Part shown: in pieces, positions 41,601 to 64,000 of the stretch
How the letters are laid out: each line of letters starts with the position of its first letter
Position numbering within the stretch: the stretch's first letter is position 1
Source: Neovahlkampfia damariscottae
Lineage: Eukaryota; Heterolobosea; Selenaionea; Neovahlkampfiida; Neovahlkampfiidae
DNA length: 64,000 nucleotides
Assembly (NCBI GenBank): GCA_016618085.1
Contig: JABLTG010000077.1
Coordinates: forward strand, 25,872 to 89,871
Reading direction: 5' to 3'
The notes under the pieces: generated by a model
The model's database searches: none
Seen by the model: only the letters and a program-made list of their open reading frames with translations
Told to the model about the DNA's origin: nothing
Program-made: the position numbers and the translations under genes

Positions 41601-44600
41601 ACATCAATCAAATGATGACTTTACCATTGTTTGTTCTATAAATTTGAATGTTCCAAATACTGGTACAAAATCAATTATTTTGTATGAGAACGAAAAACTT
41701 CATGCAATCTCGAATACCCCCTATTCATTTTGGATTATTGATTTAAAAGTTACACCGGTTAATATTTATGCCAAGAATGGTATTGCATTATCAGACACAG
41801 ATGGAAATTTATTACCTGGTTTAAAAGGATATACTTATCAATTGAATAATACACAATTCAATTTAAAATATACCTGTGTAGCACCTTCAGGTTCAATACA
41901 AAGTTGTATCCAAGAAACACAAGGAAATTATTTGAAAGATTTGAAAATAATTCCCTTGGAATTTAGTGACGGAAATGTTTCAATTCATACAGTTGATACG
42001 TTGTTTTACAGAAAGAACAGAATTGATTTATTTGTTCCACAGGCAATTCCAATCGGAGAAGTTAGTGATGTGTTAATTACTTTCAATTCTTCAACTTTTG
42101 AAACTGATTTAGTGAATATTCAATATTTTTGTGTATTTGAATCAAAGAACGTGACTGCAACTGTGATGAACGTAACAACAATTAGATGCAATTCTGTTGG
42201 TCATTCTGTAAAAAAATATTCAAAAATAGATGTTGCTTTTGAATATGGACACCATGCAGGAGTTATCAATAGTGTGGATAATTTTTACTTCATTGGTGAA
42301 AATATGATTTATCCTTCCACATCGATTACAAATTCACCTGGATTCTTAAGGTTTAATTTTTCATTTTTGGATGAATTGAAACCAAGTCTTCAAGATTCTG
42401 TTGAGTGTCAGTTTGATGATGGAACTATTTTCAATGCCAAACCAATTTCAACTTATGAATATGAATGCGATTTTGCTTCAACAACAACAAAAAATTTAAC
42501 TTTTTGGTACAAAAATTATGTCGGAAAAAGAACAAAATTATCTTCAAATTTTATTTCGTTATATTTTATGAGTAAGAACTGATTCTGAATCAAACTTAAC
42601 CTTTTTTACAGATTTCACCCTTTCTTATGATTCTACAAGTAAACAATTTGGAAATACTATGATCAAGTATAATTCAACATTAATGTTTGAAGATGAACCT
42701 GTTCCAGAGACAATCAAAGAGAATATATTTTGTTCATTCGACAACAAAACAGGTGATACTTATCATTTAGGATCAAGAAAATATTTGTGTACCGTTGTAT
42801 CAGATATTGCTGGTTTCAAGAAGATTTCAATGAAATTGAATCAAATCAATCCATTCAAAGTTCAAAATATTCATAATACATTTTCCAAAAAATTTGATAT
42901 CAGTTTCAACAATTCAATTGCAGTTATTAAAAAAATTGAATGGATCAAAGATACTACAACACTTATTACTGAAGGGAAACTCAAAAATGATTGCAGTGAT
43001 ATTGTTGTCACGTTTAATGAAATTGAAATAGGAAGGAGAGTTGAAAATTGCAATTCAGTGAATACAAAAGTTACATTTTTAACTCAAGATATCACAAAAG
43101 GAGTTGTCAATGCTTATTCTTTGTTTCTTGGAAATCCAATTGCGATCGGAAATGACTCATTTGTGGATGGAGGAGAACTTATTCAACTTTTCAGCTATTT
43201 GGAAGTAAATGATGTCATTTCAATCAGTAAGAATACTTTAGAATTTGGATTATTTAAAAAGTTCTCTGTTTTGAATGTTCAACCATATTTTGTTGTTGGA
43301 AGATCTTCCAACGTTACAATACAATCAAATTATGAAGTCATTAATTTTAATAATAATATTGACTTCTATGTTGAACATTCTACATTAAATTATTCGGCAA
43401 AATTAAATGGAAATACTTTTTTTGCCACACTAAATTCAGTCTCTCAAGCAAAACTGAACCTCAAAATATTGGTAATTTACAAACCAACAGGAGAAAGAGT
43501 TGATGGTTCAATTGACACTTTTGAATTCTTCTTTATGGATCCAATCAATATGAAATATTTGTATCCATTTGTCGAAGGATTTACTTTTTCAAACAAAAAT
43601 ACACGTGTCATTTTGAACACAAATGAGAATTTATTGACGGATAAAGGACTTCTTTGTCAGTATTGCTTAAATACAGACACTCAGTATTTTGAAGCAAAAT
43701 TCGTTGGAGGAAATACCAAAATAGTTGATTGCAACATTACTGCAGCTGGTTTATTGAAGACATCAGAATTGGTCCATATTTCCTTATACATGAATCAATC
43801 GTTGGATACATACATAAAATTATCATCTCATAATCTCACTTTGGTTTATATGAAAGAACCAATTTCAATCAACTTAAACCCTGTTATTAACAAATATCTT
43901 TTTGGACAAAATTTTGATTTAGAATTTACAGATCCACTCTCATTAGATTTAAAACTAAGTTATTCGAATTTCAAAGTTAAAGCAACAGTGGAAAATTCAT
44001 TAAATTCAAATTTTATTTCATGTCAAAATGGTATATCAAAACCACAATGTGTCATTGATAATTTGACTGTAGACAAAACTCCTTCAAAAATAGATTTTCA
44101 AATGCAATTCAACTCGACATTCTTTTCAGAGAACATCAACTTGAAAATGACATCACATTATTTTAGAGAAAATATCACATTCCTCACTGAATTTCCTTTT
44201 ATCGCAAATTCAAAGAATTCATCTTTGAAAATCAATTTCAATGTATCTCAAAATCTTCATCAAAATTACAGTTACTATTGCAGAGTATTTGGTGTGGATT
44301 ATGAAATTATCCGTGATTCAGTTGAATACAGTTCATTTTCATGTAGTTTTTTGACTAAAAATGAATTGTATGCGAATATATCATTGTACATTAATGGTTC
44401 TTCAATTATTGGTATGGATGGTATAATTTCAAATGAAGATTCGATGATTGAATTGACACAACTCAAATTACAAGTCGGTTATTCTCGGGATGTTGATAAT
44501 TCTTCACATACCATTTCAAGATCAATTGATTCTTCTCCTATTTTTCTAAATCAAAAATATAGAAATTTGCAATACAGAATTGTCTCAAATGACGGAATTT

Positions 44601-47600
44601 CATACATTTATGGCTGTAAAGTACTTGAATCAGGATCCATAGAATGTGTAAAAAATTCATTGTTCAACCCAACATTTGATATAAATCTCATTTATTTTGA
44701 GTTGGAATACAAAACTGAAAACACTGGTTTGTGGAAAAAATTAATTGATGTGAATAGAGGCTTGGTGTCTTATGAAAAACATGTTATTGTTTCTATATCG
44801 CCAGTTGCTGCATTAGTTCATTCAAGTTTAAATGTCACCATCAATTTTGGATCAAGCACTTTAAATTTAGACACCTTCTTGTCCAATCATCTGGAGTTAC
44901 ATTGTTCAGATCAAAGAAACTTGTTCAATGGATTAAAAAAATCTACCACGAGTTTTTTGTGTGATATTCAATATGAAAATTCGAATTTGATTCAAATTGA
45001 TGTGTCATTTACAGTTCCTAAATTTGATATTGGATTAAACGTATCTTTATCAACCAATACTTATCCATTTTACTTTTTGACTCAATCAGAAATAAATTTG
45101 AAATCAGAATCCGATAGAAGATTGTTTGTTTCAGATGAATTCGCAACATTTAATATAAACACCACTAATTTCATTCCATCAAGTGCATTAGAATTCATCA
45201 AAGGAAAATTCAATGAATCATCAGGTTTCGTCGGAGCAACAAATTTAGTCTATTCTAATGGAAATGACTATACGTTTTATTTTAATGCATCACTACAAAA
45301 AGGAGGTCTGTATCCATTATCACTTTGGTATGATGATGGAAATTATAAGTTTCAATTGTCCAATAATACTATTGATGTTGTGTTTATCAAAATTGCAAAA
45401 ATTCTTGGTTCATCACCAACTGTTGCAATAGTGAATCAAACATCAGTTCTGAACATACAAACATCTTTTGATACCAGTTTTGATTATGGCAATAATACAT
45501 CTTTCATTTGTAAATATGGTCCGTCTGGTGCTCCTTTTGGAAATTTCACAAAAGCTACTGTCGGATTTCTCAAAGGAACTTTTGATTGTAATGTAATTTC
45601 AGATAGCATTGGAACATATTATATCAGCGTTTGGATAGTTGCAGTTGGGGTGGAAAAGAAAATAACGGATGAAAATCTTGCGTTTAGAATTGTTACAACA
45701 AACTATTTATCACCAAGTTATGGAATAGCTGCTGGAAATGAAAATACAACAATGAACACATATTATGGAATACCAACAAATATTACATTCAATCAAACAT
45801 CTTTGGAAAAATATGTCTTTATTTGTACTTCAGTTTCATTTCAATTGAATTGTGTAACTCCGACAATAAGCACCAGTGACTTGATTCCTTACTCATCTTA
45901 TCAATTGAAGTTCACACAAACATCTGTAAAATTTTCAATCAAATGGGTTGTGTATGAAAAAAGGAATATTTCAGATTTCTATCCTAAAGTTGTTTCAGCT
46001 TTTACTTCAAGTTTCAACTTGTCAATCCATTTGAAAGAAACAAAATTAATACAAGAAGGTTCATTCTATCTCGTGATTGATCCAAAAAAAAGTGAAGAAT
46101 TAAGGAGTGATTTAGGACAACTAAAGAATGAATTAAATTCCACAGTATTAATTTCAAAATCATTGACTGCTGGATCACATTTTTTGGAATTGTTTTACTT
46201 TAATTCTGAGTTAGTAGAATTCAAATCAATGATTCCAATTTCTTCAAAAGAAGTTTTAACTGTTCTCAAGAGATCAACAATATCTTTTGCTTCAAATTCT
46301 GAAAATGTCCTTTATTTGAATGAATTTAAGAATATCACAATATCTCTTGATAACGATGTTAATATGTTGAGTTATCATTTACCGAAGGTAAAATGCAAAA
46401 TTGGAGATGTATTTGTGGACACGTATTTTGATGCTTCAAAACCAACTCAATACAGCTGTACTGCATTTTCTTCAACAAAAAAGATCGATTTCTTTTCTTT
46501 ATGGTATAAAAATGAAGATGCTGTTGATGGAGAAATATTAATTTCAAGCACCAAACTACCAATCTTATTTATTGAAAATTTTAATATCACTTCAGTATCA
46601 CCATTTGCTTCAGTAGAAGAAAATACAACAATTTCCATTGATTCAACATTTACGGACATTTATGGTTCACATGCAACTTACTCCTGTGAATTTAATGGAA
46701 AATCGTATCCTGCCAACTATGTGAATTCAAAATTTCAATGTTCTTTGTCAAAAGATACTTCGAATTCATATTTCGATCATGTGAAACTCAATATCACTTC
46801 ACCGATAACAAAGCACTCAGTTGTTATCTCTAAAAATAAAGAAGAGAATTCAAGGTTTTATTTTTTAAGTAAAACTAAAATGAATTCAATACATCCATTT
46901 CTGAAAACACACAACTCTGTTGGAAAAAAATTGGATACCACTATTCAATTATCTTTGAAAGAGAATCTTATTTTAGAAAGAGGACTGGTTTGTAATTTTG
47001 GTGACGCTTTGTTTTCTGTGGCTACTTATTTCAATGGAAACAAAAATGTTTTAGAGTGTGAAATATCAAAACAAAATTTGGGTTCTGTTGATATTTTAGA
47101 TATTACACTTTGGATTAATACCACGAAAACACTATTTCAATTGTCATCAAATAATGAAACATATCTTTTTATCAAGGAACCTATGTTGTGGAAAGATTTG
47201 CAGAATTCTTTTGACTCCAGATTCAATCCTTCAATTAATTTTGAAAAAGAATTGCCAGATACTTTTGAATACCAACTTCAATTAAGTTATCCAAAACAAA
47301 ATGTGGTTTCAAATGTATCTTGTGATTTTAGTGGGGTTCCAATCTGTCAACCAAACTTTACCGAATTAGCTATGATCAACACAATTCCAGCAAACATCAG
47401 TTTCAAAATGTATGTCACTCACAAATTTACAAAAATTGTCTCATCTTTCGACTTGGAAAATTTGGCTTACTTTAGAGATATTGCAATTCAACATTTGAAA
47501 CCTTTTATTGTGAATTCTTTCACGACAAAATATTCTCCTGTGAGAATAATAGCAAATATTTTTGAAAATGAATTGAATTCTTTGGAGTACTCTTACAAAT

Positions 47601-50600
47601 GCAACATATCCAATCATAACGAATACCGCTTATTTGATTCAAAATTTGATGTTTCTTCAACTGAGTATCAACCGATATTACCTGAAAAATCACATTTCGC
47701 TTGTGATTTTATATCATTTGGAGATGCTGATACAGATTACTATGTTACCCTTGTACTTGCAATTGGAAATAAAAACTATGAACTCACATCAGTACCTGCA
47801 GTTATACATTCAATTTCTTCATTGGAGTTGTTAACCACATCTGGTGTTTCAACAGGGAACTATAATATTTCAGTAAATTTGAATTTCAAAAATCCAACAA
47901 ATATTTATTCAAGCTACAATCACACAATTTCAGTGAAAAACAATGAAAACTATGTTAATTTGGGTACATGCGAAATGATTAAAACTTTCTTACATTGCTA
48001 TGTGAATTCAATTGTGAACTTATTTTCTACTTGGAAAGACTCCAGGAAACTACGTTTGATCATGTTCACAGATAATTCAAAATCAATTGAATTAAATCCA
48101 TATTTCACATTTTATCCAGAGATTAAGATTATTAAGGTATCACCATCAACATACGCCCCAACAAATGCAATTGGAGATTTTGAATTCTTTCTTACATCAT
48201 TTGAATTTTTTGAAAAAATATCTATAAAATATGTGATGAATAACTTGGAAATAGAACATAATTGCACGTTAATTTCGTTAAAAATTTTGAAATGTGGTGT
48301 TCCTTCATTCAAAACAATTGGAGTGGCTTCAATATTTCTGTCTTTAACTTCTGGTCAATATCAAAAATTAAATGGCAACATTACAATATATTCTCCATCC
48401 ACGTTTTCGTTTCAAAATGCATTGCCTAATTTATTGTCATTTGTTGATAAGAATACACTTTTCATTGCTGGAACAAATTTTATCAACACAAATTATATCA
48501 AAATCAAAATTTATGATGGTTTGATTAATCTTGTTGTTGATGGTGTTTTTGTGAATTCTACTCATCTCAAAACTTCAGTTGATTCATTATTTTATTATGA
48601 TGGTATTTATCCAAGAACTTTGAATGCTGATGTTTCATTTGATGGAGGTTTACAATACTTAACCAATTCTATTTCATTAAAGATTGACAATTGGAATGAA
48701 GTAGAAATTTCACCAAATCTGATTGCATTGAACGAAATATCAAAAGGAATTACCATCAAACATTTTCCTAAAGAAATATATTATAATTCCAGTGATTACA
48801 TTCTTGAATATTTCCTATGGATGAATCAAACGAACTTCCTCAAAATGAATTGTTTTAATGAAGGAAATTTGATTTGTAACTTGACTAAAATCCCAAAAAT
48901 CATTGGACATTATGAATTCAAAGTTATTTTAGTGGATAAAATAGGAACTTGGAATCAAGTAAATATATTTTCGAGTAACAAAATGTACATATATCCAATA
49001 TTATCAATTGAATTGGTTGAACCAAAAATGCTTGTACTGGGGACTGAAAATCCTATTAAATTTAAAGGAAATTTTACAAGTTCCTTATTCAAAACTGCAA
49101 TTTTCAGATTCATTTGGAACTCAGATACAGTTTTACTTTCATCTTTTGATAACACAACAACATTGGTTTTGGCAGAATTAACAGAAAATGAATTATCTGT
49201 ATCATTACCAAAAAGGTCTGGATTGAAAAATGTCGAAGTTACATTTAATGGAATTAACTTTCATCCTTTAAATCAATTTGATTCAATTATCAAGAATTAT
49301 CAATTAAACTATGTCATCAACACAAACACAAAAGATAATTATTTTTTGACTTTCGAATCAAGTCCAGGAAAAATTGAAGGAGTGGATTTTCCTGCTGGAA
49401 ATAATACAAAGTTAATTTTACGCTTTGACACAAATAACATATTAGATATTACCACATTATCCAATTTAGAATATGTATCTGACAAAGAAATGAACTTCAG
49501 ATTCCCATCATTCACTGAAATAACAGCACCATATCAATTAAGGTATCCACTTGAATTGCAGGTTGGACTTTCATTCAATGGAGGTTATGATTTTAGATAT
49601 TCATCAGTTGTTTATTTAAATACTTATCGCCAATCAACCTTCACTGGAATTTCTCCACAAATTGTTCCACAGGATACTGACATTGATGTTTCAATTTTTG
49701 GAATCAATTTACATTTCTTTGATCGTTGTGTATTTTATGCTCCAGGATTTGTTTCTCCTGGAAAAGAAATCCATATTTCAAACAAAACTATTGCTACAGA
49801 GAAAAATTCCACCATTTGTTCAATTCCTGCAAGTAAAACTAAAGGATATTCAATTTTGATAATCTCAATTTTGAATCCACAAAGCAATTTGAATGAAAAA
49901 GGATTTGAACTTTCTTTTTATGAAATTCCAAAGTTTGTTAATTTTATTCCAAATTCAGGAGTGAGTTCAGGAGGTTTTCCAATTACAATAACTGGAGTGA
50001 ATGTTTCAAAAGTTATCGATAATCCTTATTGCAAGTTTGGAAATATATTATGTGAAAAAAGATGCACATATTCTCAAGGATCAATTAATTGCATCACACA
50101 ATCACATCCTGCAGCAAAAGTGAATGTTGAAATTAGTTATAATGGTGAACATTGGCACGGTGTTCAAAATTCAAACATTACGAAATTTGAGTTCACCCCT
50201 TGTTTGGCTGGATATTCATCAAATTCTTATAGAGAAGGTTGTAGTTTATGTCCACCAGGAACATACAAACAGATTGGAGGATTATTTGACTGTATTCCTT
50301 GTGAAGAAGATCATTTTACTTCATTTTCTGGATCAATTCAATGCGAAAAATGTCCTGCTAATACTACAACTGATGGGATTAAAGGTTCATCATCTCATAC
50401 AGCATGTGTTTGTAATATAGGTTTCTATGTCAATCCTACTAAAGATTCAACTTCGGGAGCCTTTGGAAAATGTATTGAATGTCCTACAGGAGCTGAATGT
50501 AACTCAAAAAATATGACTATACCTCTTGCAAAGTATGGATATTGGAGATCAGCAGACAATCATCAACTCTTTTATTCTTGCCTCCCAGAGAGATCATGTG

Positions 50601-52738
50601 GTGGATATGGAGCTGAAAATTGTACAATTGGATATAGTGGTCCAAGATGTGGGTTTTGTTCATTGAATTATTATAGATTTAGAAGAAACTGCAATAAATG
50701 TGAAGAAGGAGCTTGGATTCGACTTGTTGGTATTCTTGCAGGAATGGCAGTAATCACTGGAATATTATTTTTATTGTCATCAACAAAAGTACATCATATT
50801 GCATCAATTGCTATTGCTTTTTCATTTTGGCAAGTGTTATCCATGTTTGCAAGATTTGATATTCAATGGCCAAGTTTGATTGGTGGTTCATTAACCGCAT
50901 CCTCAACATTCAATTTCAACACTGATTTCTTGAGTCCAAATTGCATTTTCCCAGATATGAACTATGTTTCTTTGTGGACTCTTCAAATGATGATGCCAAT
51001 TGGATTTTTTATTTGCTTTGCAATTTTATATTCAATTTTGCTTTTTAGATCATTTGTTGCAGCGGTCATAGGAGGTACCTTAAGACGTGTGTTCAAATTG
51101 AATATCAAATATTTGGGTCCTCTCAAAGATTTTGATCTAACGGAACCAGTTGATGAGGAAGAAGTCGAAGAAGAGAAATCTAAAGAAAAAAAAATCATTG
51201 AATTCATCAAGAAATCATTGCTAAAACTGAGATTTCTTCTTTCTGAAATTGGAAGGAAAGTTATTAATCTATTCATTTGGTGGTTCACAGAAAAATCATC
51301 GTTCAGGGAAATGATCAAAATATTCAATAGAATTATCAATGCAATATTTGCTTTTATCAGTTTTTCATTTATTTTTATTATGACCACAGCTTCGGAAGTA
51401 TTTGTTTGTAGATGGCAGCCAAACGGAAAATTCACTTTGAACAATTCACCAGATATTTTTTGCTATGAAGGAATATGGTTATATATGTTTCCATTGACAA
51501 TGTTATGGTATCTGATTTTCGGAGGTGGATCATTAATTTATTTTATTACAATTTATTTTAAATTCAAAGAATGGTCAAAAAGCACCAATTTCAATGAACG
51601 AAACAAATTTATGTTATCTAGATTTCGTAAAAGATATTACTTTTGGGAAGCAGTTATTACCATGAGAAAAACAATTTTATCTGTTCTGTACATCTTTTTA
51701 GAACCAATGTTGGTTATCATTTCTGGTATTTTATTGCTATTTATTGGATTCTTATTACACACAAACTTTGTTCCGTTTAAAAGAAAATTCCACAATGTGA
51801 TGGATTATTTTGTTATTTTAACAACTTTAATGTGCTTATTTTTCGGATTACTATTTTTTGTTGATAGATTTCCGAATCAAGAAACCAAGGTTTTCGCTGA
51901 ATATCTTGCATTTTTTGTTCTTATTGGTAGCACAATCATAGTAGTCTCTATGATACTATGGGATGCAAGGACAAGAAGAAAACATGATGCAAAAAAAAAT
52001 TTAGACCTAAAGAGGCATAAAATTAGAGATAAAGAACGTGATAACCTCAGATTAAAAGTATTATTCGATTTGCATCAATTTGGAAAAGGAGATTTTCATC
52101 AACATGATAACATGTTTGGAAATTTTGAGGTACCTTGGGACACAGATTTTCAATATAAACCTGTTTCTTTTCAAACTGATTCAGAATCAGAAGAAGACAA
52201 TTATACGAACATGAATGAAATATTTGGTGATTTACTCTCCAGAAGAAGACTTGAAAAAAATCTTTTTTCGCTTAAAAAGAAAACTTACAAAGCTTCCATG
52301 ATAATTATCAAAAAAATTAAAAAGAAAGATAAATCAAATATTGATAAACATATTAATGAAATGAATACCTATGATTCAACGATTTGGGATCAAAAAGATT
52401 TAGATAGAATTCAGAATTTTGAAAAAAATGTTGGAAGGGAAATGATCAACATAGTGTCTAATACTAAAACAGGTTCACGAGTTAAATCACTATTACACCC
52501 AGAAGAAATGAGTTCACGTCAGAGAGATATTATCAATGATTCTAGATCATCTGTGAGACATGTTAAATCAAAGAAATTGACAGTGAAAAAATCAATGGTT
52601 GAAGACGCAGCGACAATGGTCGAATTGAAAAATGCATCCACTGATGAAAAAAGAAATTCTTCAAAAGATGAAAACAGAAGAAAATCAAAACAAAAAATCC
52701 CTTCAACAGATTTGGATATTGAAGTAGTCAAAAAATAA
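38688..52738 (+). CDS. Giant multi-domain surface membrane protein (4,614 residues)
   Basis: Seven exons (38688-38847, 38883-39064, 39097-39272, 39306-39402, 39434-39593, 39629-42571, 42612-52738; introns 31-40 nt) splice in perfect frame. A signal peptide (MKRILLTLTLIIISQVLS) is followed by two concanavalin-like beta-sandwiches (~60-250, ~260-470). Three EGF-like modules (~472-583; CSNHGNC, CSSHGNC, CFGRGNC) come next, then a short leucine-rich stretch (~643-700). About 3,000 residues of Asn-rich, N-glycosylatable Ig/TIG-like repeats follow, ending with clear IPT/TIG domains. A cysteine-rich GCC2/GCC3-like block (~3770-3940; SLCPPGTYKQIGG) precedes about seven to eight membrane helices (~3945-4355). 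The cytosolic tail of ~260 residues is basic and Ser-rich. It looks like an adhesion-type receptor for prey, substrate or kin recognition. Confidence 0.88.
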
Positions 52739-55195: not shown

Positions 55196-56794
55196 TCATT
55201 TTGGTTCAAAGTCCCATACCGAAATATTGGCATCATATGATCCACTAACAATTTTTCCATCTGGTAACCTTAGTATTGATTTCACATAATTTGAATGTTG
55301 TAATGTTGATATACACTCTCCAGTTTTTATATTCCATATTTTGATTGTTCCATCTTCACTTCCACTTGCCAGTAGCTCATCATTCAATAATTCCAAATCT
55401 CGAACATAATCTTCATGACCTGATAAACTCCTCAAGCATTCAGATTTCTCAATATTCCATATTTTTATTGACTTATCTGATGAACCTGAAATACAGATAT
55501 TTTTGGAATGTTTTACAATTTTGTTCACTGATTGGTCGTGAGCCACAATCGTTTTAATCAATTCCATGGATTCTAAATTCCAAAATTTTATGCACCCATC
55601 TTCTGATGCACTCATCAAAATAGTATCAGAGAATAAAATTAAATCCCAAATCCAACCTTCATGTCCTTTCAATCTGTGATAGATTTTTTGATCCTTAAAA
55701 ATACCTATAGAATGATCTGAAAAACCTGCAGCTATAAAATTCAGTCTTGGTATTTCTAAGAGACTTAGAACATTACCAGATTCTGGGTTGATTGTTGAAA
55801 CACATTTCCCATCTTTCCACTCTAAGATTGTGTTATCACGTGAACCAGATAATAAATTTCCATTGCTCAGTTGAATTAACGATAAAACTGAATTACGATG
55901 ATTGCTTAGAGTCTCCTTACATTTTCCAGTTTCGAAATCCCAAATTTTAATTGTCTTGTCCCGCGATCCAGATGCCAAATTGCCATTTGACAACTTAATA
56001 ACTTTCCAAATATAACCAGAATGTCCTTGAATTCTCATAGGATTATCTTTAATAGGTTTTGAATAATCCAAAATTCTTGATTCCAATGAATAAATTGGAC
56101 CTTTCATTTTTTCTTCTTTGATAGGTTTTTGGTCATCCATTTGATACATAATATCACTTCTCAGAATATACTTTTCTCCAGATTTAAGATTTGCTCCTTC
56201 ATGCCATAAAGAATGTTCAAAAACAATTAAAGATCCTCTGATTGGTTTAACAGAACATATTATTTTTGCTTCATGACCAGGAGTTTCCAAAAAATTTGTA
56301 AAACCACCTTCAAAGTCATCATTTAAATACAACATAAAAGTTAGTTTTGATTGAATTTCATTGCTTCTCCAAAATTCTCCATCTTGATGGTATCTAAAGA
56401 ATTGATTTGGCAAATATTTACAAGATCTAAATCTTTCATTTAATCCATATAAATTCCATTTAGTTGAATCATTTTCAGAAGATGACACTATTAAGTGATT
56501 TTTCCAATGAATGTTTTGCGGTATATATTTTTCAACTCTTTTGAATAATTTTTCTGATAGTTTTGTGTTGTCAATAACTTGTCTTAAATTATTTCTATAA
56601 GTTGGTGGGTAATAAGGATCACTGGATTTGTACCCAGTCTTTTCTGAGAATTTTATCAAATTTGCTGTTTCTTCTGTTGTCAAGACATTTTTTAGGATGA
56701 AACAAATTTTGTCAGGTATTTTACAATCTTCTATTTTAATATTTGAAGAATCAAAATCAAAATTGATACACTGATCAATACTTCCGTCACCCAT
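55196..56794 (-). CDS. 2OG-Fe(II) prolyl-hydroxylase-like domain fused to WD40 propeller
   Basis: One exon of 532 residues from the ATG at 56794, with a CCAATCA box 22 nt upstream. Residues 25-225 form a 2-oxoglutarate/iron dioxygenase. The metal triad is His136 and Asp138 (FRYHQDGEFW) and distal His198 (SLWHEGA), with the 2OG-binding Arg (ILRSD, ~212). Residues 255-532 hold seven WD40 repeats (GHSGYIWKVIKLSNGNLASGSRDKTIKIWD and similar), enough for one closed propeller. No signal peptide, so cytosolic or nuclear. It probably hydroxylates a protein recruited by the propeller; the fusion is unusual to me, substrates unknown. Confidence 0.88.
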   Translation of the reverse strand: MGDGSIDQCINFDFDSSNIKIEDCKIPDKICFILKNVLTTEETANLIKFSEKTGYKSSDPYYPPTYRNNLRQVIDNTKLSEKLFKRVEKYIPQNIHWKNHLIVSSSENDSTKWNLYGLNERFRSCKYLPNQFFRYHQDGEFWRSNEIQSKLTFMLYLNDDFEGGFTNFLETPGHEAKIICSVKPIRGSLIVFEHSLWHEGANLKSGEKYILRSDIMYQMDDQKPIKEEKMKGPIYSLESRILDYSKPIKDNPMRIQGHSGYIWKVIKLSNGNLASGSRDKTIKIWDFETGKCKETLSNHRNSVLSLIQLSNGNLLSGSRDNTILEWKDGKCVSTINPESGNVLSLLEIPRLNFIAAGFSDHSIGIFKDQKIYHRLKGHEGWIWDLILFSDTILMSASEDGCIKFWNLESMELIKTIVAHDQSVNKIVKHSKNICISGSSDKSIKIWNIEKSECLRSLSGHEDYVRDLELLNDELLASGSEDGTIKIWNIKTGECISTLQHSNYVKSILRLPDGKIVSGSYDANISVWDFEPK

Positions 56795-56816
56795 GTTTTG
56801 CTTGTAAAAATATTGA

Positions 56817-56823
56817 TGATTGG
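56817..56823 (-). promoter_or_regulatory. CCAATCA box of the hydroxylase-WD40 gene
   Basis: TTTGACCAATCATC on the minus strand, 22 nt before the ATG at 56794. Confidence 0.5.
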
Positions 56824-56852
56824 TCAAAATAATCTAAAAATAAACTCAACAT

Positions 56853-61186: not shown

Positions 61187-61480
61187 ATGTTGGTCATTTT
61201 GAACCAATCAAAAAAATGTTGGTCATTCCAGAAAAATTCGAAATTAAGCCATACTTAACAAAAAGAAAAAGAAAACCAGAAGAAGTCAACAAAAAGAGAA
61301 AAAGAAATAAAGAAAAAATGGGAAATGATGTAAGGGTTAGATTTTGAAAGGGGGAAATGTATAGAATAACTTGTATTCATACCATTATTTGAAAAAAAAA
61401 CAAACTTCGAGTCGTTTATGTTGAAACACCATAATCAAGTAAATTCCATCAAATGGTCAATTGGGTTCAAATACTCTAAT
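61187..61480. other. Gap between TIR element and dispersed repeat
   Basis: No gene. A purine-rich tract (about 61258-61330, AAAAAGAAAAAG-type) and scattered TTGGTCATT motifs; two copies of GTTGGTCATT sit just outside the right arm. Confidence 0.4.
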
Positions 61481-61812
61481 AGTAGTAGATGCAGAAGGTC
61501 CGGGTGGCGATTTAACTTTTTTTAATTTTCACCCCCCAAGGAAATGAAAAAAGGCCATTTTCGCGGATTTTTCATTTTTTTTGACCAAATCCCCCCTAGT
61601 CTTCAGACAACATTTCGTGCCATCTCACGCCTCAACTCGGCAGTTTTTTGTCATTTGAAAATTTTAGTTACCTTCTTACTTTTTGTTATCCATAATTTTT
61701 CATTTTGCTTCTGTTAATTTGTTGGTCCATTATATTGCTTTTTAGTTGGTATAAAATTATGGGTAATAAAAACTACGAGTTTGTAAATCCATAATTTTGG
61801 AAGATTTGAATC
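61481..61812 (+). repeat. Dispersed repeat, copy B
   Basis: Same family and orientation as 19767-20085; begins AGTAGTAGATGCAGAAGGTCCGGGTGG and ends after ACTACGAGTTTG. It carries an ATG (ATGGGTAATAAAAACTACGAG) matching the ATG of copy A, but the frame stops after eleven codons. Confidence 0.75.
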
Positions 61813-61871
61813 CTTTATTTTGGAAGTTTGGTGCATCATCTTTTTTTTGTTAAAATTTTTTTTCCAGCTTG

Positions 61872-62140
61872 TTATACAAAGTTTTTTAAGTGTTGTAAAC
61901 TTGTCAAATTTTGAACCGACGATATATTAATATCTTCAAGAAGTGGATTATTTTCTATAATTTCATTTAAAATATTGGTCTTTTCTTGAAACCATGAGAT
62001 ACATCTATTTTCTTTAAATTTTTAAATTTTGTTATGAATTCAAGAGAAGTTGGACTTTCGTGAACATCATCCAAATCTTCATATGATTCAATTTCAGGAT
62101 ACAAATTATAAAGTTCTTCAACTTTGTTAATTGTTTGCAT
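61872..62140 (-). CDS. Small leucine-rich-repeat protein (76 residues)
   Basis: Two exons (61993-62140, 61872-61954; intron 38 nt) in perfect frame. The product has about two LRR units (SLEFITKFKNLKKIDVS, LLEDINISSVQNLTSLQHL). A CCAATCA box lies 19 nt before the ATG. It is very short for an LRR protein, so it may be a fragment of a larger LRR/F-box gene that kept or acquired a promoter. The stop of the next gene is only 42 bp upstream, so genes here are densely packed on the minus strand. Confidence 0.5.
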
Positions 62141-62159: not shown

Positions 62160-62166
62160 TGATTGG
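62160..62166 (-). promoter_or_regulatory. CCAATCA box of the small LRR gene
   Basis: CCTCCAATCATTTGC on the minus strand, 19 nt before the ATG at 62140. Confidence 0.45.
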
Positions 62167-62182
62167 AGGAAAACTTTATTTT

Positions 62183-63187
62183 TTATTTTCTAAATTCAAG
62201 TTCTTTATAAAATTTTTCATTGAAAGTTTTTGAGATTCCATTTGAATTGTATTTTATGTCTTCAAACTTTTCTACTGTGACAAACACTCCTTTTGAAAAT
62301 TCTATTGAAAGTGTTAATTCTTTTGATGATAACTTTTTATAAAAGTCATCATCAATATCAATTACTGAGAAATGAGAATACAAACCATCTGTTTCAATTT
62401 CAAAATGCTGATCCTTGTTTTCCAAATTGAAATCTTTTAAATTTTTGTCAATTTCGTCTTTTAAACATTTTCCAGTTTCTTCCCACATCTCTTGTTTCAG
62501 TGTTTCGAAAGCACTTTGAAATTTAGGTTTTCCTCCGAGGCATGCGTAAAATGGTTCATTTTTGGATGCTTTGAATTTGGAAAATTGATTTTTCCAATTT
62601 GAATCTGTGGATTTTAATCTTTTTTCCAAATCTTCTGAAAATCCAAAGCATTTGTCATCACTTTTTTCCATTCCAGCAAGGTAATCAATTTCATTGTCAT
62701 TGAACAAAGAATTATTTTCATAAGTTTTTATGAACTTGTTCAATTGTTGTTTTGTTTTGTTTTTCATGAAATGTCCTAACTTTTTTTTGAAATTACAAAA
62801 TTCAGCGGTGGATTTATTTTGAACAAAATAATAATATTTTTGTTGGTGACGAAGCAAAGCATAAAACCCAGAATAGAATTTCATGTTTGGGTTGTCTTTT
62901 TTAAGGTTTTTGATTGATACCTTTATCTTTTTATTTTCTTTTTTAATAATAATCTCGCACGAATAGATATTCTTTTCCAATATTTCTTTACTGTTTTTTT
63001 CGGTATTAATAGGGCCGTGGTAATATGAAATATTTTTTTCTTCAGTGATTGATCCCAGAAAAAAACCTGGGTTTATCATTTGGTCAATGTAAACTACGAT
63101 TAAGGCGTTAAAAAGGTAATTATTACCAAAGCCTTTTTTATTCTCCGTGGTAATATTGTTTTCTTTTGTTGTTTCCAAATCTGACAT
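62183..63187 (-). CDS. Nudix-hydrolase-like protein
   Basis: One exon of 334 residues. Near residue 220 lies a Nudix box, GGKPKFQSAFETLKQEMWEETG: spacing fits G-x5-E-x7-R-E-x-x-E-E-x-G, but the first Glu and the Arg are both Gln. The metal-binding E..EE core is kept. Around it the length and order (strand before the box, acidic C-terminal strands) suit a Nudix fold; the first ~200 residues are not recognised. Nudix enzymes hydrolyse nucleotide diphosphate linkages, and several large DNA viruses use them as mRNA decapping enzymes. A CCAATCA box lies 31 nt upstream, inside the end of the preceding small ORF. Activity is uncertain because of the two substitutions. Confidence 0.6.
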   Translation of the reverse strand: MSDLETTKENNITTENKKGFGNNYLFNALIVVYIDQMINPGFFLGSITEEKNISYYHGPINTEKNSKEILEKNIYSCEIIIKKENKKIKVSIKNLKKDNPNMKFYSGFYALLRHQQKYYYFVQNKSTAEFCNFKKKLGHFMKNKTKQQLNKFIKTYENNSLFNDNEIDYLAGMEKSDDKCFGFSEDLEKRLKSTDSNWKNQFSKFKASKNEPFYACLGGKPKFQSAFETLKQEMWEETGKCLKDEIDKNLKDFNLENKDQHFEIETDGLYSHFSVIDIDDDFYKKLSSKELTLSIEFSKGVFVTVEKFEDIKYNSNGISKTFNEKFYKELEFRK

Positions 63188-63205
63188 GGAGTTAACTTTA
63201 TTTGT

Positions 63206-63460
63206 TCAGGTTGTTGAATGATTGGCTAAAAATTCCAAATTTTTTGAAACTTCATCTTTCATTTTTATTTGATGTTCAGAAGTAGTTTTTTTTATTTCCT
63301 CATGCATTTGGGAAGGAGATAGCTCAACGTTGGAGCCACAGCAACAAGATTTTTCTATTCTTTTGGTAAATTCAATAACTCCAGTAACCAGTGGCCCAAT
63401 TAATGATGTAATTAAACCTGCTGAAGTTATTACAATTAATATTGTTAGTTCTACTGTCAT
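63206..63460 (-). CDS. Small membrane protein, probably viral
   Basis: 84 residues: one N-terminal membrane helix (LTILIVITSAGLITSLIGPLV), a basic patch with a Cys cluster (RIEKSCCCGSN), and a helical hydrophilic tail. Small proteins of this shape are common beside the packaging ATPase in virophage, Polinton-like and large DNA virus genomes, but the sequence itself is not recognised. It follows the ATPase by 15 bp on the same strand and has no CCAATCA box; its upstream is a pure AT stretch. Confidence 0.5.
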   Translation of the reverse strand: MTVELTILIVITSAGLITSLIGPLVTGVIEFTKRIEKSCCCGSNVELSPSQMHEEIKKTTSEHQIKMKDEVSKNLEFLANHSTT

Positions 63461-63475
63461 ATATAATGATTTTAA

Positions 63476-64000
63476 TTAATATTTAATTTTAATTGATTTG
63501 TATTTTTCTGGCACTCTTCCAATGTGATATTTTTGGTCATCTTCTAATACTTCTACAATAATAAAATTATAGTTTTGAGTATTATCAATTATGAATTTTT
63601 TAACTTCTTTAATTGATTTTTCATTCATAAAATTATCTTGAATTGATTTAAATGTATTTTCTTTTGTTTGTTTAAAAGTAATAAAATATGTTGCGCGTTC
63701 TCTTATTGTTGTTGGTATTTTATGTATGTATTGAGTTGTAAATATTAATGTAAAATTTGGATGTCTATATGTTGATGTCAATCTACTCATTATTTTGCTT
63801 TGAAAGTTAATGGAACCAATACAATCATCAAAAATGATAAATGCAGGTTCTGCTTTTTTATTTTTCTTTTGTTGTGCAATTTGAATATTATAAAACTTAA
63901 TCAATGTGTTTTCATTATATCTTGAATGGACAAACTCATTGGGTAAAAAATCATATGCTCCTGTAAATTTTGTTGGACAAAATACAAGACCATATTTAAC
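63476..64000 (-). CDS. A32-like DNA-packaging ATPase, N-terminus beyond window
   Basis: The frame is open to the right edge, so only the C-terminal ~174 residues are present. It shows VFCPTKFTGAYDFLPNEFVH (the segment after Walker A), the Walker B EPAFIIFDDCIGS with paired acidic residues, and LIFTTQYIHKIPTTIRERA, the conserved Thr-Gln sensor region of FtsK/HerA-type A32 ATPases. These enzymes pump viral DNA into capsids and are hallmarks of nucleocytoplasmic large DNA viruses, virophages and Polinton/Maverick elements. No stop or intron disturbs the visible part. Walker A should lie just right of the window. Confidence 0.85.
   Translation of the reverse strand, partial: VKYGLVFCPTKFTGAYDFLPNEFVHSRYNENTLIKFYNIQIAQQKKNKKAEPAFIIFDDCIGSINFQSKIMSRLTSTYRHPNFTLIFTTQYIHKIPTTIRERATYFITFKQTKENTFKSIQDNFMNEKSIKEVKKFIIDNTQNYNFIIVEVLEDDQKYHIGRVPEKYKSIKIKY

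Follow-up and report, generated by a model that had tools for sequence, protein, structure and literature searches.

Results

An element end at the edge of the contig

What is a gene for viral DNA packaging doing at the end of a contig that carries host genes, and does it belong to an integrated virus? The question was raised by a 64,000-nucleotide stretch of Neovahlkampfia damariscottae DNA (the window), which comprises bases 25872-89871 of the 89,871-base contig C282 in a genome of 20.4 Mb and 307 contigs. Genome size, genes split by introns and eukaryotic protein domains suggest a eukaryotic host that is probably single-celled. Host genes (CAP, FHA and WD40) lie to the left on the same contig. 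A first-pass annotation had placed part of an endogenous DNA virus or virus-like element at 62183..64000. An element is indeed present, but it begins at 61481 and is longer than was proposed (Table 1). Its endogenous, virus-like nature is borne out by relatives with capsid, integrase and replicase-like genes and terminal inverted repeats (TIRs), perfect 6-bp duplications being found at two of four TIR pairs. Since the right edge of the window is the end of contig C282, no extension to the right is possible. Base composition does not set the element apart, with a GC content of 27% at 62-64 kb against a range of 24 to 32% over the 2-kb bins of the window. The evidence given below indicates that the right edge of the window is very probably the left end of an integrated Tlr1-type Polinton-like virus (PLV), one of a multi-copy family. 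Tlr1-type PLVs are a kind already known, of which this family is a new member.

Table 1 Features of the element end in window coordinates
Feature	Position	Strand	Basis or remark
Putative left copy of 6-bp target-site duplication	61475..61480	.	Position only: six bases preceding the TIR
TIR, left element end, begins 5'-AGTAGTAG	61481..61829	+	Abrupt similarity start common to copies
57-aa ORF, possible passenger gene or first exon	61967..62140	-	Between TIR and Nudix-like gene
CCAATCA box of 57-aa ORF	62160-62166		
Nudix-like passenger gene, 334 aa	62183..63187	-	ORF; degenerate Nudix box
Small membrane protein, 84 aa	63206..63460	-	ORF; ATG 15 bp past ATPase stop
CCAATCA box	63219..63225	-	Begins 38 bp ahead of Nudix-like ATG
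A32-type genome-packaging ATPase, C-terminal 174 codons, truncated by contig end	63476..64000	-	Pox_A32

Terminal inverted repeats and target-site duplications

The last 9 kb of the window were compared with 20 fetched loci, which revealed two main blocks of similarity, one covering the ATPase and most of the membrane protein gene (63255-64000) and the other running from 61481 to at most 61829; nothing between them matched at any of the 20 loci. The second block is the TIR, the inner edge of which is uncertain within 300-350 bp. A genome-wide search with this TIR gave 69 candidates and 40 scored matches, the latter spread over at least 37 contigs. In the C47 copy, TIRs of 294 and 296 bp, 92.6% identical and inverted at the two ends, enclose 13,338 bp, and TGGACG lies immediately outside each of them as a perfect 6-bp duplication. 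A second perfect duplication, TTGACT, flanks a TIR pair on C268, and five of six flanking bases match at a pair on C258. The C280 pair, which encloses rve integrase, replicase and capsid genes, has no matching target duplication, and this copy could therefore be composite. In cryptophyte PLVs, a 6-bp duplication is given as typical for rve integrases in the accessible part of PMC12220804.

At C258:33896-34763, two facing TIR copies lie within 0.87 kb and resemble a miniature non-autonomous element. At C268:23645-32120, 8.5 kb lie between the inverted TIR copies with the perfect duplication, and searches with five core genes found no match inside; in the 2.5 kb that were read, a 208-aa ORF is accompanied by a gene with weak, below-cut-off similarity to TPR/Sel1. 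This stretch is possibly a passenger-only element.

The packaging ATPase

The ATPase fragment in the window matches Pox_A32 in Pfam (E 1.3e-10), and all of its 174 codons are open up to the edge. Both the Walker B motif (FIIFDDC) and the sensor stretch (TLIFTTQY) are present, in agreement with the first-pass identification of an A32-like ATPase. Walker A and about 40 N-terminal residues fall past the contig end; in relatives, Walker A reads APPxSGKTYLIKY. A profile of 16 relatives found the STIV B204 genome-packaging ATPase as its best match (E 9.2e-9), compared with E 0.33 for a HerA chain. A HerA or other cellular origin of the gene is ruled out by this comparison. This was one part of the result that would have refuted the annotation; the other, a neighbouring ~20 kb with host genes only, concerns DNA past the contig end.

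Searching the genome with the ATPase gave 32 matches on at least 26 contigs. In addition, a public metagenome contains an ATPase (P0015) with 96% identity to the C211 one. Relative to three of its four closest copies (the fourth, a partial one, was left out), the window ATPase shows dS of 0.15-0.30 and dN of 0.015-0.025, giving dN/dS of 0.08-0.10; across all 45 pairs of ten copies, dN/dS ranges from 0.08 to 0.47. These low ratios indicate that the lineages that gave rise to these copies were selected for a working ATPase; the ATPase copies show purifying selection.

Core genes in related copies

Within the window, the element is represented only by a single TIR, the truncated ATPase, the membrane protein and passenger genes, and the remaining gene content was read from other copies. 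The gene order shared by C158 and C47 is a DUF5767 protein, a 190-aa protein, a 105-aa protein on the other strand, a protein that looks fibre-like by eye, a 241-aa protein, a 404-aa protein, the ATPase and the membrane protein; the other fetched copies show parts of this order. In C158, the first of these proteins matches DUF5767 at E 3.6e-6, and the 241-aa protein, a candidate minor capsid (penton) protein, matches DUF5901 at E 6.8e-8 (both Pfam). At C31:54654-60640, the ATPase/membrane protein block runs in the opposite orientation to the capsid genes and TIR, which suggests an internal inversion or an assembly error.

Metagenomes contain 14 relatives of the 404-aa protein, whose gene directly precedes that of the ATPase, at 34-63% identity; one of them carries PF16903, the capsid N-terminal domain. 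P0001, the nearest of these at 63% identity to the C211 404-aa protein, was modelled with AlphaFold using 11 of the 14 relatives (pLDDT 76, pTM 0.76). The model matches capsid proteins of PBCV-1 and an iridovirus (SGIV), with a best E of 2.5e-18, and also viral major capsid proteins; among its named structural matches, those to NCLDV capsid proteins rank above those to virophages. As judged from this model, the 404-aa protein is a double-jelly-roll major capsid protein. Capsid and integrase genes were among those that the first-pass annotation had proposed to look for beyond the window, and both occur in relatives within the same genome. The capsid gene has 33 matches, and rve integrases are found at 37 places, 33 of them above the cut-off. 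One rve integrase lies between the C280 TIRs (E 5.5e-8); in C86, a weaker rve ORF below the cut-off (E 9.2e-4) adjoins the 241-aa gene; and no rve ORF was present in the examined pieces of the C47 copy, which has broken frames.

The C47 element contains the capsid gene, the ATPase and a large ORF that matches Viral_helicase1 (E 4.2e-9) and endonuclease VII/HNH (E 6.6e-7). This helicase-HNH ORF has 55 matches in the genome; in 11 of them the frame is open over at least 1,000 aa, the longest protein reaching 1,357 aa. The C280 counterpart of the ORF is 94% identical and occupies a single open frame of 1,347 aa. Polymerase-like motifs A and C (DFTKAY and KTDC, by pattern) lie in the upstream 840 aa of this frame, together with a stretch read by eye as vOTU-like. 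Motif C, as KTDC, is without its first Asp. The polymerase part had no match in Pfam or PDB and reached only E 0.04 to a family of unknown function in PHROGs. Of the two other genes named for follow-up, DNA polymerase B has a possible counterpart in the helicase fusion with its polymerase-like motifs; as for the protease, none of the C47 and C158 ORFs tested was identified by Pfam as being of Ulp1 type.

The genome also contains stand-alone protein-primed polymerase (pPolB) genes at nine places, eight of them above the cut-off. Two have open frames (595 and 611 aa), and motif C is NTDG in the two checked. For five of the nine, an rve match is found no more than 8 kb away. These genes form a second family, with loci on C188, C268, C199 and C227; the one on C199 is about 9 kb from a capsid/ATPase remnant of the window element's family. 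The C47 copy has no PF03175 match, the stand-alone genes being on other contigs. No similarity was detectable between the fusion palm and the stand-alone pPolB genes, in a weak test with one and two sequences.

Many copies are fragmentary or contain stops, and open capsid, ATPase and helicase frames are present in other copies. The contig map took 30 of the 33 capsid matches and 33 of the 55 helicase matches, leaving out secondary fragments and those on C144, C77 and C241, so its contig counts are lower bounds. In IMG/VR, the capsid and ATPase alignments gave 65 and 87 pattern matches, among which no relative was confirmed. Pox_VLTF3, a marker of endogenous giant viruses, had no match, but as this was also the case in control genomes the result carries no information, and PADLOC returned two weak matches for six ORFs.

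Passenger genes near the TIRs

As the first-pass annotation had described, a small membrane protein is encoded on the same strand immediately after the ATPase. It has a single strongly hydrophobic N-terminal stretch, and its start is homologous in the C47, C211, C158 and C86 copies. DNA similarity to other copies ends at 63255, within this gene, as if passengers had been swapped by recombination near this point.

The next gene had been described as Nudix-like. Its product does contain a degenerate Nudix motif, GGKPKFQSAFETLKQEMWEETG, whereas the intact Nudix box has the consensus GX5EX7REUXEEXGU; the identity is nevertheless weak, with no significant match in Pfam, NCBIfam or PDB (best PDB match a MutT protein, E 1). 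PHROGs gave a weak match to a family of unknown function (E 0.0074), a search of 5.8 billion proteins gave nothing at E 0.01, and a single-sequence structural model was unusable (pLDDT 34). In the genome, its only relatives are on C50 (76%, with five stops in the main match, near a TIR) and C125 (43%, open, with a further changed box and RRP7 as best Pfam match, below cut-off). A Nudix-like product of this ORF is therefore plausible but weakly indicated. At the same end, the C211 copy carries a true NUDIX protein (E 6.2e-10), which shows no clear relationship to the window protein (E 0.099). The word Nudix did not occur in the PLV literature found for it, as far as the accessible parts of those texts go, which is not proof of its absence from print.

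In C47, an LRAT-domain protein (E 2.5e-6) is encoded between the membrane protein gene and the TIR, and a SAM-domain gene (E 1.4e-4) and a 272-aa gene with no clear match lie at the other end. Which genes lie on the stretches from the capsid module to the TIRs varies from copy to copy, and we regard them as exchangeable passengers.

Two classes of upstream motif

The heptamer CCAATCA occurs 34 times in the window, compared with 16.0 +/- 4.1 in shuffles, none of 100 of which reached 34. Host ORFs of 250 aa or longer from the window and the fetched loci numbered 54, with first ATGs rather than mapped starts taken as starts; CCAATCA lies at most 60 bp before 12 of them and its reverse complement before five. 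The shorter CCAAT, in either orientation, is found within this distance before 26 of the 54. Over the adjoining 60 bp the figure is 12 of 54, and of random 60-mers 20% contain it. CCAATCA is likely a host promoter element. All seven passengers have a CCAAT box, the C125 gene being counted although only putatively element-borne, and four have the exact CCAATCA or its complement; seven of seven is above the random rate and, with so few genes, not clearly different from the host rate of about one half. The passenger set was chosen by place and not blind to sequence, and the 57-aa window ORF is a candidate gene only. For the ATPase-membrane protein pair, the first-pass annotation had noted the lack of a CCAATCA box; none precedes the membrane protein gene, and the ATPase start lies past the window edge.

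The core genes have a different motif. TATA is found at most 15 bp from the ATG in 35 of 46 core ORFs, compared with two of 54 host ORFs and none of the seven passengers. The 46 comprise every family ORF with an ATG and 60 bp upstream, including the window membrane protein gene; three more were cut by the locus end. In a hand-picked set of core genes, the motif is present in 29 of 32. CCAAT in either orientation precedes none of the 32 and four of the 46. When the 11 ORFs that miss TATA were sorted afterwards by eye, eight proved to be fragments or frames with an internal first ATG, and all four CCAAT cases were among these eight. The core genes, being related copies within eight families, are not independent observations; TATA is present in at least half of the hand-picked members of each family. 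Part of the contrast is due to composition, because the 15 bp before the ATG are 91% A+T in core genes compared with 74% in host ORFs; shuffled core 15-mers contained TATA in 13.1 of 32 on average and in no more than 24, compared with the 29 observed. The contrast between core and host ORFs is still large in the full 46-ORF set. The same motif within 15 bp of the ATG is found at the fusion replicase and at all three stand-alone pPolB genes shown, two of which have identical upstream stretches. These motifs suggest that passengers may follow host transcription and that core virus genes may not.

Discussion

Maverick/Polinton elements resemble the window family in their 6-bp target duplications, rve integrase, packaging ATPase and double-jelly-roll capsid protein. 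Maverick TIRs end in 5'-AG, as do those of the window family. In contrast to Mavericks, the C47 and C280 pieces have a helicase fusion instead of a stand-alone pPolB, and no Ulp1-type protease was recognised.

Closer counterparts are Tlr1 of Tetrahymena and the Tlr1-type PLVs, for which the accessible portions of the sources describe an rve integrase, a packaging ATPase and capsid proteins (PMC11071308; PMC4642659) as well as a large protein with a C-terminal superfamily-1 helicase, a polymerase motif C without the first Asp, as in Tlr1-like helicases, and a C-terminal homing endonuclease (PMC11071308), all as in the window family. The nuclease differs, being of HNH type here and GIY-YIG in Tlr1 itself, according to the part of PMC12721341 at hand. 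The passengers also differ, and the palm of the window family is recognised by motifs only, so that the two are likened by description and not by direct sequence comparison. Mavirus and the endogenous mavirus-like elements of Cafeteria, in the portion of PMC8547959 used here, share many integrated copies with TIRs and virus-type motifs upstream of virus genes; in contrast, the window family has TATA at the start codon instead of the TCTA of type 4 elements, a fusion replicase and passengers with host-type boxes. A PLV of Oxyrrhis, as partially described in PMC12721341, is likewise endogenous and has a superfamily-1 helicase-pPolB fusion, but its helicase is N-terminal and not C-terminal, and the described part lists a tyrosine recombinase without rve, whereas rve is present in C280.

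Other explanations of the element have to be weighed against a Tlr1-type PLV. We consider it unlikely that the element is instead a canonical Maverick/Polinton or a mavirus-like virophage with a stand-alone protein-primed polymerase. An rve integrase with 6-bp target duplications is common to Mavericks, and the genome does contain stand-alone pPolB genes, including the one near the C199 remnant; however, the helicase-HNH ORF is found in C47, a copy delimited by TIRs and a perfect target duplication, and the named matches of the capsid model put NCLDVs before virophages. Less credible still is a misassembly that joined free virus or contaminant DNA to a host contig with no integration. Several contigs, including that of the window, end inside elements, as such an artefact might produce, but the 40 TIR matches place element ends on at least 37 contigs, and the two perfect duplications are of different flanking sequences.

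Whatever the state of the family, the window copy itself could be a dead, decaying fragment with no activity, which we regard as a serious possibility but not the better bet. The fragmentary or interrupted state of many copies, the divergence of about 7% between the C47 TIRs and the departure of the window membrane protein gene from other copies past 63255 all point in this direction. Against it, all 174 ATPase codons of the window copy are open with dN/dS of about 0.1 relative to near copies, and other copies retain open capsid, ATPase and helicase frames. The first-pass annotation had read the open frame as a sign of recent integration or a still functional provirus, which goes beyond the evidence for a copy that is not visible whole.

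For a Tlr1-type PLV of this composition, a cycle can be proposed. The rve integrase would insert linear DNA with a 6-bp stagger, and the large fusion protein, with its polymerase-like palm, superfamily-1 helicase and HNH nuclease, would copy the genome from the terminal repeats, presumably by protein-primed replication. Particles, if formed, would have a shell of double-jelly-roll capsid proteins, into which the A32-type ATPase would pump the DNA, perhaps together with the small membrane protein. Activity of any copy and the role of passengers are likewise suppositions from gene content. The findings add a Tlr1-type PLV family that is present in many copies in a small and AT-rich eukaryotic genome, together with the ends of the element and its insertion signature.

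The upstream motifs allow a more tentative suggestion, which we hold to be possible though not probable, that the element has two regimes of expression. TIR-side passengers would use the host CCAAT promoter and be expressed in the integrated state, where they might serve the host or guard the provirus, whereas virion and replication genes would have a TATA-at-ATG promoter that the host normally does not use and would wait until a different polymerase or factor is supplied, for instance by a giant virus. Host-type genes would be shuttled by non-autonomous copies that share these TIRs, such as the 8.5-kb C268 element with its TPR gene. A helper virus as the trigger of core genes is a conjecture by analogy with mavirus, as partially described in PMC8547959. 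A literature search for PLV promoter motifs in combination with host genes, latency and virophages found nothing, which does not prove absence from print; the arrangement of passengers and promoters would, if confirmed, be the new part. If the promoter split holds, sequence alone would distinguish the genes of the integrated state from those of particle production in an endogenous virus, and the role of a provirus for its host would become testable by ordinary RNA sequencing.

Other features of the window lie in its host part. Its saccharopine dehydrogenase gene is split across several frames, a single ORF at 55196-56827 joins an N-terminal half that looks oxygenase-like by eye to WD40 repeats, and 42659-52738 is one uninterrupted open frame of 3,359 aa.
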